Below are positions 16,377-58,622 of a stretch of DNA of 64,000 nt, one piece after another. The translations under genes were made by a program, and so were the position numbers. Under the pieces are notes generated by a model, which was given only the letters and a program-made list of their open reading frames with translations, did not search any database and had not been told where the DNA came from. The DNA lies in assembly GCF_014466985.1 (NCBI RefSeq), contig NZ_AP022826.1:1860001-1924000 (forward strand), given 5' to 3'. Position 1 is the stretch's first letter. Each line of letters opens with the position of its first letter. The stretch comes from Nitrosophilus labii (GTDB lineage: Bacteria > Campylobacterota > Campylobacteria > Campylobacterales > Nitratiruptoraceae).

Positions 16377-16396
16377 TATTGCTCCATAGCTTGATA

Positions 16397-16552
16397 TTAG
16401 ACATTAGACATTAGTCATTGGACATTGGAAATTAGTGACGAGTAATCAGTAACGAGTAATAAGAAAAGTTTTTCCTTCACACCTTCACCCCTTACCTCCT
16501 TACAACCTAACACACTTCATACTCCATACTACGCACTCCACACTTACTCACC
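16397..16552. repeat. Mosaic of degenerate 7- and 8-base tandem arrays
   Basis: Four arrays stand in series: TTAGACA/TTAGTCA/TTGGACA (16397-16431, unit 7), AGTGACG/AGTAATC/AGTAACG/AGTAATA (16434-16461, unit 7), CCTTCACA/CCTTCACC/CCTTACCT/CCTTACAA (16474-16505, unit 8) and CACACTT/CATACTC/CATACTA/CGCACTC/CACACTT (16511-16545, unit 7). The last array contains the stop codon of the torD-like gene (16544-16546). Different unit sequences but a shared period and position between genes suggest one generating mechanism. Confidence 0.85.
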
Positions 16553-17113: not shown

Positions 17114-17127
17114 AATTTATCCTTATT

Positions 17128-17223
17128 ATTAGTATATTAGTGTATTAGTATATTTGATAAAACTAATTATTGTTGAAATTATATAATACATAGATAACTA
17201 ATATACTAATACACTAATATATA
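17128..17223. repeat. Inverted pair of 8-base arrays (TTAGTATA units)
   Basis: ATATTAGTGTATTAGTATAT (17134-17153) and ATATACTAATACACTAATAT (17201-17220) are perfect 20-bp inverted repeats, each made of 8-base units (TTAGTATA, TTAGTGTA). The 47 bases between them are AT-rich and empty. They lie inside the Mo operon between the small periplasmic gene and torD. Confidence 0.85.
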
Positions 17224-55345: not shown

Positions 55346-55450
55346 GGATTTACCTATTTTGGATTTTTTATCATTATGCCCTATATAATAAAACAATATT
55401 CCTTAAATAAGAATAAGCTAATAAAAAAATGAATATAATTCATTAATTAG

Positions 55451-55540
55451 GTGTGAGTGTAAGTGTGAGTGTGGGTAATAAAGAATACACTAATTCCTAA
55501 TTCCCAATTCCTAATGTCCAATGTCCAATGTCTAATGTCC
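55451..55540. repeat. Tandem arrays with 6- and 7-base units upstream of emrA
   Basis: GTGTGA, GTGTAA, GTGTGA, GTGTGG (55451-55474) are followed by seven 7-base units CTAATTC, CTAATTC, CCAATTC, CTAATGT, CCAATGT, CCAATGT, CTAATGT (55490-55538). The region is the divergent gap between two efflux operons, so the arrays occupy the promoter space of both. The unit CTAATTC/CCAATTC is shared with the repeats around the S23-type gene 1.2 kb downstream. Confidence 0.85.
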
Positions 55541-55556
55541 AAAAAAAAGGAATACT

Positions 55557-56672
55557 ATGAAAAAAATCGGTTCAATTTTACTGATAATGTTGATTTTAAT
55601 ATTTAGCTATATAGCTTATGACTATATAAGTTATAGAACTAAAAATGCGGTAAGTGATGCTGCGTTTATTAAAACGGATACACTTTTGACTCTCTCTTTC
55701 AAAGTTGACGGTAAAGTAGTAAAAATGTTAAAAAAAGAAGGTGATAGCGTGAAAAAGGGAGAACTTTTAGCTCTTATAGACGACAAAGATTATAAAGTCG
55801 CTTTAGAGAGAGTAAAAAAAGAGATTGACTCTTTAGTTAAAAAAGAGGAGGTTCTAAGCTTAAAAAGAGAGAGAATTAAAAATGAACTAGATATCAACGA
55901 GGGACTAGCAAAAGATAAAATAGAGTACCTAAAGTCTAAGATAGAAGCTTTTAAGCTAAAAATCTCAGCAGATACTCAAAATCTTAAAAAACTTCAAAAA
56001 GATGAAAAGAGATATAAAAAACTTCTTCATGAAAAACTAATATCAAGAAACGATTATGAAAAAGTAAAGACTAAACTAGATTCACTAAAAGATCTAATAG
56101 CGGCACAAAACAAAGAGATAGGTTCTTTGTACGTGGAACTTGAAAGTGCCAAAAAAGGAGTCCAGCTCAGTACAGTAAAAAAGAGAGTTTTATCTGAGCT
56201 AGATAAAGAGATAATATCTTTGAAAAATAAAATAGAAGCTCTTAAAAAAAGAGCGGAAGAGCTCAAAAACAAAATTTTTTATTGTAAGCTTTATGCACCT
56301 ACGGATGCAATAGTTGCAAAAAAGTTTATAAACAAATCTTATGTCATAAAAAGAGGCTATCCGGTTTATTCTATAGTTAATCCTAAAGATTTGCATGTTG
56401 AGGTATTGCTTAGCGAAAAGAAATTAAAAGGGGTAAAAGAGGGTAATAGTGTTAAAATCAAAGTTGATGCATATCCAAACAAAGAGTTTAAAGGAGTAGT
56501 TCAAAAAATTCTCCCAGCTTCTGCTGCCACCTTCAGCCTAGTCCCAAGAGATATAGCTAGCGGTGAATTTACAAAACTGGATCAAAGATTTACCATTCGT
56601 ATAAAAATTCTAAATCCTACTGAAGATTTAAGAGTGGGGATGGGAGCTACTGTCGCTATACAAAGGAACTAG
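55557..56672 (+). CDS. EmrA/HlyD-type membrane fusion protein
   Basis: 371 residues. Membrane anchor (about 7-25), lipoyl half TDTLLTLSFKVDGKVVKMLKKEGDSVKKGELLALID, long coiled coil with many K/E heptads (about 80-230), then CKLYAPTDAIVAKKFINKSYVIKRG and a barrel ending RVGMGATVAIQRN. Periplasmic adaptor of an MFS pump. Its stop TAG (56670-56672) sits at the edge of the repeat that begins the S23-type unit. EmrB follows after that unit, so the original operon was emrA-emrB-tolC. Confidence 0.9.
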   Translation: MKKIGSILLIMLILIFSYIAYDYISYRTKNAVSDAAFIKTDTLLTLSFKVDGKVVKMLKKEGDSVKKGELLALIDDKDYKVALERVKKEIDSLVKKEEVLSLKRERIKNELDINEGLAKDKIEYLKSKIEAFKLKISADTQNLKKLQKDEKRYKKLLHEKLISRNDYEKVKTKLDSLKDLIAAQNKEIGSLYVELESAKKGVQLSTVKKRVLSELDKEIISLKNKIEALKKRAEELKNKIFYCKLYAPTDAIVAKKFINKSYVIKRGYPVYSIVNPKDLHVEVLLSEKKLKGVKEGNSVKIKVDAYPNKEFKGVVQKILPASAATFSLVPRDIASGEFTKLDQRFTIRIKILNPTEDLRVGMGATVAIQRN

Positions 56673-57092
56673 GAAATTGGAATTAGGAATTGGAGGAAAT
56701 AATGGTTGAGAAATTAGGACAATTAGAAATTTATAAAGATGCTATTAAATTATCAGATATTTCTTGGCAGATTTATCAAACTCTTCCGAAAGAGTTTAGA
56801 TTTAATATAGGTAAACAATTATTAAATTCAGCTGACTCGATTGGTGCCAATATTGCAGAGGGTTTCGGTAGATTTCATTTTAATGACAAGATTAAATTCT
56901 ATTATAATGCCAGAGGAAGCCTATTTGAAGTTAAACATTGGATATTTTTGTTACATAAAAGAGAGTTAATCGATATTTCAATAAAAAATGATATTTTAAA
57001 TTTATGTGAAAAATTGGGAAAACAGTTAAATAAATTTATTTTTAAAAGTAGGAAAAATAATGCCTAATTCCAAATTCCCAATTCCTAATTCC
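56672..57092 (+). mobile_element. Putative repeat-bounded S23 (four-helix-bundle) unit
   Basis: About 421 bp. Left: GGAAATT, GGAATTA, GGAATTG (56672-56692). Right: CCTAATT, CCAAATT, CCCAATT, CCTAATT, CC (57063-57092). The two arrays are inverted with respect to one another and enclose only the S23-type gene. The unit splits an emrA-emrB pair that normally is adjacent. Mobility is inferred; no transposase or target duplication is seen. Confidence 0.6.
56702..57067 (+). CDS. S23/IVS-type four-helix-bundle protein
   Basis: 121 residues from ATG 56702, with GGAGG six bases before it (itself part of the repeat). Family pattern: LEIYKDAIKLSDISWQIY, FRFNIGKQLLNSADSIGANIAEGFGR, FYYNARGSLFEVKHWIFLL. 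The S-I-G-A-N-I-A-E-G signature is that of the 23S rRNA intervening sequence protein family, which also occurs as free genes of unknown function and as Avd in retroelements. No rRNA or reverse transcriptase is nearby. It overlaps the emrB ATG by 8 bases, so it is read in the emr operon. Confidence 0.9.
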   Translation: MVEKLGQLEIYKDAIKLSDISWQIYQTLPKEFRFNIGKQLLNSADSIGANIAEGFGRFHFNDKIKFYYNARGSLFEVKHWIFLLHKRELIDISIKNDILNLCEKLGKQLNKFIFKSRKNNA

Positions 57093-58622
57093 GCTCAAAA
57101 GCCTTGGGAAATAACAACCAAAGAAAGGATAGTCTATACTATTATCGTTATGGTCGGTGCTTTTATGGCTATACTTGATACTACGGTAGTAGACGTTATA
57201 GTTCCAAAACTCACGGGCCCTCTTTCTACAGATATGTATGGAGTACAGTGGATCATAACTAGTTATATGGTAGCTGCAGCCGTCGGTCTTTTAATATGTG
57301 AATACCTTATAAAAAAGTTTGGTTCTAAAAAAGTTTATTTAGCCGGTGTTGCTATGTTTAGTATAGCCTCTATGTTTTGTGGGCTTTCAAATACCCTTGA
57401 GACTATAATCGTAGCAAGGGTAGTGCAAGGGGTTGGAGAAGCTCTTATCATGGTTACTAGTCATGTAATGATTTTTTCATATTTCCCCCCTAAGATGAAG
57501 GGACTGGCTATGGGGATATTTGCCTTGGGAGTAAGCTTCGCTCCTGCTCTTGGGCCAACCGTAGGGGGGTATCTTACAGAATATTACAACTGGAGAATGG
57601 TATTTTTCATAAATGTTCCCATAGGAGTTATTTTAGTGGTTGCGGGGTTAATCTATCTCCCAAAAGATAGGTTTTTTGAGAAGATGAGTTTTAATTTTAA
57701 AAGTTTTACTTTGTTATCTATAGCAACCGTCTCTCTTCTTATTATGCTAAGCCGAGGACAGCAGCTTGGTTGGTTTAGTTCTATAGAGATAGGGATTTTG
57801 CTCTATATCGCGATAGTAGGATATATTTTGTATATTTTAGCCGAGATGCATTCAAAGAAGAGTTTGATAGATTTTTCTCTGTTTAAAAATGCTGACTTTA
57901 CAAACGGCATTTTTATCTACTTTTTTATTCTAGGGTTTAGTATGTATCAATACTTTTACCTTTTGCCGGTATATTACGAACATATAAAGATGCTTCCTAC
58001 GCTAAATGCTGGAATAGCGATATTTGCTTTTGCACTTTTTATAGGTATTTTCTCTCCAATAGCAGGAATTATGAGTGACAAGATAGGGGCAAAAAAAACG
58101 GTGGCAATTGCTGCTGTTATTTATCTTTTTACTTCTTTTTTTCTGCTTCCAAATCTAAACTATTATACACCTATGACACAAGCCATTTTGCTAACCGTTC
58201 CTTTTGGAGTAGGTATGGGTATGTTTTTTGCACCTGTAACAGTCTTGATTTTGCAAAGTGCACCACATAACAAAAGTGAACTAGCAATTGTACTTATGGA
58301 CTATGTAAGATTTGTAGGCGGAAGTTTTGGAACTGCTCTTGCTACAAACAATATGGAGTATTTTAAATCTTTAAATTTTGACAGAATGGTCGAGATACAA
58401 AATATTGAATATATAAGACTCTTTCTAGATGAGGCTAAAGAGTTTTTAGGGGTTACGAAAGAGCTAATAGAAGAGGTTTTTAGAAACTACGAACTTTTTA
58501 TGAGTTACAACTATGGATTTTATAATACTTTCATGCATGCGGCATATTGGGGACTTCTTGGAAGTCTGTTTGTTTTGCTGCTTTTTTTCAAAAAAGATTT
58601 GAAAGTTAAAAAGGAAGAGTGA
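57060..58622 (+). CDS. EmrB-type MFS drug exporter (DHA2 family, 14 TM)
   Basis: 520 residues. MFS DHA2 signatures: FMAILDTTVVDVIVPKLTG, VQWIITSYMVAAAVGLLICEYL, RVVQGVGEALIMVTS and GPTVGGYLTEYYNWRMVFFINVPIG (motif C). Fourteen membrane segments. The first residues PNSKFPIPNSA come from the 7-base repeat that ends the S23-type unit, so the start codon and leader were supplied by that unit. A possible older start would be downstream. The 3' end overlaps the TolC gene (TGATG). Confidence 0.92.
   Translation: MPNSKFPIPNSAQKPWEITTKERIVYTIIVMVGAFMAILDTTVVDVIVPKLTGPLSTDMYGVQWIITSYMVAAAVGLLICEYLIKKFGSKKVYLAGVAMFSIASMFCGLSNTLETIIVARVVQGVGEALIMVTSHVMIFSYFPPKMKGLAMGIFALGVSFAPALGPTVGGYLTEYYNWRMVFFINVPIGVILVVAGLIYLPKDRFFEKMSFNFKSFTLLSIATVSLLIMLSRGQQLGWFSSIEIGILLYIAIVGYILYILAEMHSKKSLIDFSLFKNADFTNGIFIYFFILGFSMYQYFYLLPVYYEHIKMLPTLNAGIAIFAFALFIGIFSPIAGIMSDKIGAKKTVAIAAVIYLFTSFFLLPNLNYYTPMTQAILLTVPFGVGMGMFFAPVTVLILQSAPHNKSELAIVLMDYVRFVGGSFGTALATNNMEYFKSLNFDRMVEIQNIEYIRLFLDEAKEFLGVTKELIEEVFRNYELFMSYNYGFYNTFMHAAYWGLLGSLFVLLLFFKKDLKVKKEE

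Follow-up and report, generated by a model that had tools for sequence, protein, structure and literature searches.

A candidate mobile unit of inverted repeat arrays and an S23 gene at an emrA-emrB junction

In the genome studied here, a small gene of the S23 family lies between the efflux genes emrA and emrB and is framed by inverted arrays of seven-base repeats. Do the gene and its arrays form a mobile unit? Free S23 genes, which encode four-helix bundles, are common, and we know of no role for them. Dispersed heptamer repeats have been reported from one genome after another, and to our knowledge no mover has been given for them. The intervening sequences (IVSs) of 23S rRNA genes have come under suspicion of being mobile since 1993, with no mechanism known to us. 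If free S23 genes, heptamer repeats and rRNA IVSs belong to a single system, these three open questions merge and can be tested in culturable bacteria. The array-bounded S23 package, present at many unrelated loci in distant bacteria and cleanly missing in relatives, looks like a widespread, overlooked and very small mobile element.

Layout of the unit and its S23 protein

The window, meaning the whole stretch of DNA analysed, comprises 64,000 nucleotides (bases 1860001-1924000) of a 2.09-Mb genome (G000). The unit occupies 421 bp of its forward strand (56672..57092, +), with ends set by the arrays, and is not in 13 relatives. As the initial annotation had described, three heptads on the left face four on the right in mutually inverted orientation. 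The left terminal array consists of GGAATTN-type units (GGAAATT GGAATTA GGAATTG; 56672..56692, +) and the right one of CCTAATT-type units (CCTAATT CCAAATT CCCAATT CCTAATT CC; 57063..57092, +). The only gene between them, also as annotated, is an S23 / four-helix-bundle gene of 121 aa running from an ATG at 56702 to a TAA at 57067 (56702..57067, +; PF05635 4e-28, TIGR02436 1.5e-26, PDB 2gsc 5.9e-7). A TTG at 56690 is a possible alternative start, and the purine-rich GGAGG segment that borders the left array on its inner side (56692..56701, +) is likely its Shine-Dalgarno sequence.

The host genes are an emrA-type HlyD membrane-fusion gene on the left (55557..56672, +; PF13437 6.7e-17) and an emrB-type MFS efflux gene on the right (57060..58622, +; PF07690 2.5e-55). 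That emrA ends and emrB begins at the arrays was confirmed. The stop codon TAG of emrA (56670-56672) takes its G from the left array, whose first base it is, and the emrB ATG (57060) overlaps the 3' end and stop of S23 (ATGCCTAA). The right array encodes the N-terminus of EmrB (MPNSKFPIPNSA), which has no counterpart in most relatives; their EmrB matches mostly begin only at about residue 8-14. An Rfam search of the unit matched no known RNA family, and the complete unit, folded as RNA, was not significantly more stable than shuffles (z = -1.4).

We know of no nuclease or other catalytic motif in S23. The protein of the unit matches the S23 / 23S_rRNA_IVP family profile with 98.2 bits (curated cut-off 33.8) as well as the solved structures XCC0516 (2GSC) and 2RLD, and had no PADLOC match as a known defence protein. 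Its pI is 9.6; the median for S23 domains is 6.9, so the family is not generally basic. S23 is a homologue of Avd, a protein of diversity-generating retroelements (PMC10053308), and the Avd NCBIfam match of the window protein is weak (9e-4). In the S23 alignment five polar residues are nearly invariant (Q33, S40, N44, E47 and E70, numbered by the HMM-matched domain of the window protein), which is unusual for a purely structural helical bundle.

Occupation of the junction and flanks of other S23 genes

Were the unit mobile, empty sites should exist in relatives, and they do. Among readable emrA-emrB junctions, 13 genomes carry an S23 unit (G000, G002, G003, G017, G019, G021, G024, G026, G036, G060, G068, G069 and G176, the last four assigned to this junction by reading their flanks as emrA/emrB), one (G005) has a decayed S23 copy with arms, and 13 are empty (G001, G004, G006-G010, G012, G014-G016, G027 and G033). 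An S23 gene fixed at emr, or unrelated genes flanked at the same rate, had been named as evidence against mobility; S23 is not fixed there, and unrelated genes are flanked in this way far less often. The arms also differ by genome: ATTRGGA in the window, ATTRGAC in G019 and G021, ATTRGTC in G003, G017 and G024, ATTDGGC in G026 and an AAAATGG-like unit in G036.

A tree of 95 S23 domains places the emr proteins in two distant clades, with three label changes and support of 100/99 for the deep split; the second clade occupies the junction in family f16. Both clades have members at other loci (clade A L137, clade B L134), and the junction has therefore been occupied at least twice.

Inverted flanks are also common among S23 genes in general. 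We scored the best local alignment between ~130 bp upstream and the reverse complement of ~130 bp downstream (140 bp in sample D), with a threshold of at least 16. Sample A held 90 S23 genes from the own phylum and from genomes reached through arrays, and was thus partly chosen by arrays. Samples B (another 22 genes, from the own order) and C (24 genes, all within the phylum of a Planctomycetota genome) were selected independently of arrays, and sample D held 14 plasmid genes and one phage gene. The threshold was reached by 63/90, 20/22, 15/24 and 12/15 genes (110/151 in total), counting related genomes, as do the genome-level tests below, with p-values nominal throughout. The same score was reached by 7/169 control ORFs, taken from the loci of sample A only, by 2/238 random windows, and in separate sets for A-D by 1/91, 0/22, 0/24 and 0/33 random windows (0-1% of random windows overall). 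When left and right flanks were paired across different S23 copies, 8%, 8%, 0% and 8% reached it; left matches right within a copy and not between copies, so the arms are copy-specific. The expectation that S23 genes are flanked by inverted AATTCC heptads more often than other small genes thus stood for the inverted flanks (110/151 versus 7/169) but not for the repeat itself, which is usually particular to the copy.

The array units are mostly 7 bp, and some are 6 or 8 (GACCTG in L266, TAACCGAG in L142, GGCACGGA in L260). About a quarter of S23 genes have no detectable arms, and in L253, L277 and L216 the arms are direct. Most S23 units sit at junctions of protein genes. The Planctomycetota-centred sample includes two genomes with 25 and 21 weak S23 matches (G181 and G193); the loci inspected (L269 and L267) are without arms and perhaps represent a non-mobile branch. 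Phages yielded two weak partial matches, and the one inspected (L326) has no arms. A search for near relatives of the plasmid units in an empty state found just unit-bearing copies or partners too distant to compare. Two Planktothrix plasmids, 96.6% identical (L250 and L325), differ in the arm repeat number of the same S23 unit. On plasmids, S23 genes are often found within or next to defence operons (L250, L252, L317, L319, L322 and L323), with neighbours such as cas2/cas1, drmD/MmeI, hsdS/hsdR and helicase/methylase genes, or a position before cas1.

Some S23 units lie in rRNA genes. One genome (G055) has three equal-scoring S23 copies inside 23S rRNA genes, and the S23 unit of L129 lies within RF02541, the location that defines an IVS. 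Compared with a 23S gene of the same genus, the flanks of the rRNA unit are 99.3-99.8% identical, and the helix-45 hairpin GCTTGATTTATCAAGC is replaced by ACAGATT/ACAGAAT heptad arms that enclose S23; host helix sequence was replaced, not simply split. Since one S23 set with such arms sits in 23S rRNA, the classic IVS shares the architecture described here. The window unit has the inverted ends around an S23 ORF that are typical of an IVS, and emrA and emrB, with no Rfam match, where an IVS would have rRNA. Published IVSs replace small tetraloops, and their stems are RNase III substrates (PMC4990558). In Coxiella, tandem GACAGAT heptamers precede the S23 ORF in strain-variable copy number, and the protein is probably not made (PMC4990558). 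Among open-access papers, these Coxiella heptamers were the only case of S23 with flanking repeats that we found.

Dispersed arrays and short hairpins

We searched 85,000 genomes for the array pattern GGAATTNGGAATT-(348 to 378)-AATTCCNAATTCC. Thirty-four stretches match GGAATT...AATTCC with an S23-sized gap, and S23 fills the gap exactly in nine of them, in all spanning five or more phyla (the nine are from Clostridia, Rubritalea, Fimbriimonadaceae twice, Planctomycetota-type genomes three times, Bacteroidales and Neomarinimicrobiota). S23 was called from translations in these stretches and by PF05635 in their genomes. All 16 array-first genomes searched carry S23, with 2-11 genes each, compared with 11/61 genomes of the own phylum and 25/59 of the Planctomycetota-centred sample. 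Among 150 relatives, S23 occurs in 49 and ATTDGNN triplets in 27: 20 have both, seven only arrays, 29 only S23 and 94 neither (Fisher p = 1e-6, nominal). The seven array-bearing genomes that are S23-negative hold a few arrays. S23 is present in 12 of 13 genomes with at least ten array matches, and in the exception (G149) control matches are equally many. Within one genus, array matches number 78, 38 and 270 in S23-positive genomes versus 0 and 0 in S23-negative ones.

In the genome of the window the arrays are widely dispersed. When up to 3 mismatches are allowed, the AATTCCN triplet AATTCCNAATTCCNAATTCC matches 113/116 times per strand genome-wide, versus 5/16 for the reversed control. We surveyed hairpins in 490 kb (the window itself, 20 stretches selected for their arrays or S23 genes and another 8 small stretches), where 29 of 33 neighbouring array pairs face inward (GGAATT...AATTCC), one outward and three are direct (nominal p = 5e-14). 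The excess over the control and the inward orientation together argue against a chance recurrence. Gaps within pairs are 4-159 bp, apart from 367 bp in the emr unit, the only place in the 490 kb where AATTCC-type arrays enclose S23. The other five S23 genes of this genome have different arrays or weaker flank matches. The framing of the unit as repeat-bounded thus stands for emr, but the arrays belong to a genome-wide dispersed family that consists mostly of short, gene-less hairpins.

One of these hairpins was copied. The elements at 1064018 and 1094237 have the same 118-bp spacer (96-97% identity) in inverted orientation and between unrelated flanks, which marks a short element copied together with its spacer; the pair 1257397/1531968, in which the flanks are shared too, was left out. 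Both elements recur in G002 and are missing in G001, and G004 is without the one at 1064018; G003 carries other repeats at these two sites and a different hairpin at site 760089. At site 1127351 the AATTCC hairpin of G000 is replaced by a different one in G002 (left flank 96%), with none in G003 and G001. Four insertions, emr among them, begin inside the upstream stop codon (TA, then the first G of the element). No target-site duplication was visible at the sites compared, where flanks have diverged too far or repeats obscure the ends. As near-identical strains offered no insertion to compare, the rRNA case is the only one for which exact ends and target-site duplications are known.

Proposed mechanism, known systems and alternative explanations

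We consider the unit probably to be a mobile element with the arrays as its ends, as the initial annotation had suggested; empty and filled sites and the flank excess argue for this, and movement would account for both the sites and the copies. Points against it are the S23 genes with direct arms or none, the few arrays in S23-negative relatives, the lack of a known catalytic motif, the generally non-basic S23 domains, the probable non-expression of S23 in Coxiella and the unremarkable RNA fold. More specifically, the 421-bp unit is likely a mobile cassette that resembles an IVS and ends in inverted arrays of tandem repeats, accompanied by non-autonomous REPIN-like hairpins. The array hairpin, as DNA or RNA, may be what is recognised and copied, and S23, as an Avd relative, could bind it and bring it to new sites, with existing gene junctions or hairpin loops as preferred targets. 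Because no nuclease motif is known in S23 and a Y1 transposase is absent from the genome, cutting and copying would fall to host replication or repair enzymes or to a separate partner. Insertion at an operon junction would keep the upstream stop, S23 and the downstream start compatible. The short hairpins, as non-autonomous derivatives, would depend on S23 supplied in trans, in the way proposed for REPINs and RAYTs. Whether S23 itself is needed for spreading we put at slightly less than an even chance. More tentative is the broader idea of a minimal mobile element in which the gene of a lone non-enzymatic S23 carries self-matching terminal arrays of 6-8 bp units, renewed with each copy, and reaches operon junctions and rRNA helices by means of host replication or repair enzymes, S23 acting in trans on short hairpin derivatives; IVSs, free S23 genes and at least part of the heptamer repeats would then form one system.

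The closest likeness is to the 23S rRNA IVSs of Leptospira and Coxiella, which (PMC4990558, citing Ralph & McClelland 1993) carry S23 in an inverted-end stem, measure ~0.4 kb, are sporadic and replace a small hairpin. The units described here differ in lying mostly at protein-gene junctions, in their copy-specific inverted tandem arrays and in having S23-less derivatives across the genome. REPINs and RAYTs (PMC3116915) are likewise short inverted doublets dispersed between genes and tied to genomes with one gene family, a dispersal matched here by the 29/33 inward pairs; unlike them, the ends here are arrays of 6-8 bp units, and S23 is the associated gene and lies inside some elements. A RAYT-type Y1 transposase was rejected as mover (PF01797 is absent in G000). 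MITEs are similarly short and non-autonomous with terminal inverted repeats, but the elements described here have no parent transposase and no fixed end sequence. Although S23 is homologous to the four-helix-bundle protein Avd (PMC10053308), no partner reverse transcriptase lies beside the unit, its neighbours being emrA and emrB. The sole RVT_1 ORF of the genome, rejected as mover, lies elsewhere with no sign of a link: this only reverse-transcriptase-like ORF (L215:601-3107, 599 aa) follows one that resembles cas5 by eye. Intergenic 7-base arrays are also known as the GGGAATC heptamers of Xanthomonas, which include 70-75 convergent pairs, in Nostoc (both PMC4692102), as TAACTGA in Beggiatoaceae (PMC4679880) and as cyanobacterial STRRs. 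The available parts of PMC4692102 and PMC4679880 contain no link of the Xanthomonas, Nostoc or Beggiatoaceae heptamers to S23. Xanthomonas campestris, whose heptamers the former describes, is also the bacterium from which the structure of the S23 protein XCC0516 (2GSC) was solved. We found no joint report of S23 IVSs and dispersed heptamers among open-access papers; each was already known, and joining them appears new. There is a fair chance that an IVS-like element with REPIN-like derivatives deserves a class of its own.

The strongest rival, which we regard as unlikely, makes the hairpins an independent, older repeat family in which like arrays exchange what they enclose, by recombination or template switching, and S23 is carried passively, so that the arrays would be platforms and not ends. 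It would explain why the emr array type agrees with dispersed types of the same genome (ATTRGGA in G000, ATTGGTC in G024) and why sister genomes hold different hairpins at the same junction. Few genes other than S23 are enclosed, but GGAATT/AATTCC arrays do surround one further small conserved gene, of ~106 aa (MKSVREIFK...), in Flavobacterium (two genomes, L096:1355-1734 and L104:6510-6913). This reading fits poorly with S23 being by far the commonest enclosed gene, with several S23 arms of the own genome having relatives at just 0-6 places in the 490 kb, and with array-rich genomes being nearly all S23-positive. The data do not cleanly separate it from mobilisation by S23, and only the latter makes S23 causal.

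An improbable alternative is vertical descent from one ancient emr S23 insertion with many losses, the arms co-drifting by conversion between hairpin arms. The decayed copy in G005 would suit it, as would the grouping of eight emr S23 proteins in one clade with a single outside member, but the second, distant clade at the same junction in f16 and the positions of L137 and L134 at other loci do not. Less probable still is a regulatory role, in which array RNA hairpins are read by S23 or RNase III to control or process operon mRNA, selection keeping the arrays and moves being rare. Units do sit in operons, IVS stems are cut by RNase III (PMC4990558) and the S23 stop overlaps the next start, as 35/137 S23 genes overlap the downstream open frame; however, arm sequence varies even at one locus, many relatives have no unit, no fold was more stable than shuffles, and a regulatory role would not account for the dozens of sites with S23-less hairpins. 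Repeats are abundant enough in this genome to suggest that a small gene fell between them by chance, an idea whose probability we put close to nil given the controls, which refute it with an inverted-flank excess in four samples.

The window contains further repeats of related kinds. Upstream of emrA (55450-55542) lies a half-element of GTGAGTGT-type repeats followed by one-sided AATTCC and AATGTCC heptads that abut the emrA start, and similar composites occur in L051 and L056. A hairpin of inverted 8-mer arrays at 17127-17221 (TATTAGTA ... TACTAATA) is distinct from the AATTCC family. At 16396-16550 different short-unit arrays stand side by side (ATTAGAC, AGTAACG and CACACTC types); these elements seem to be nested, as do those in L046 at genome position 1377781.
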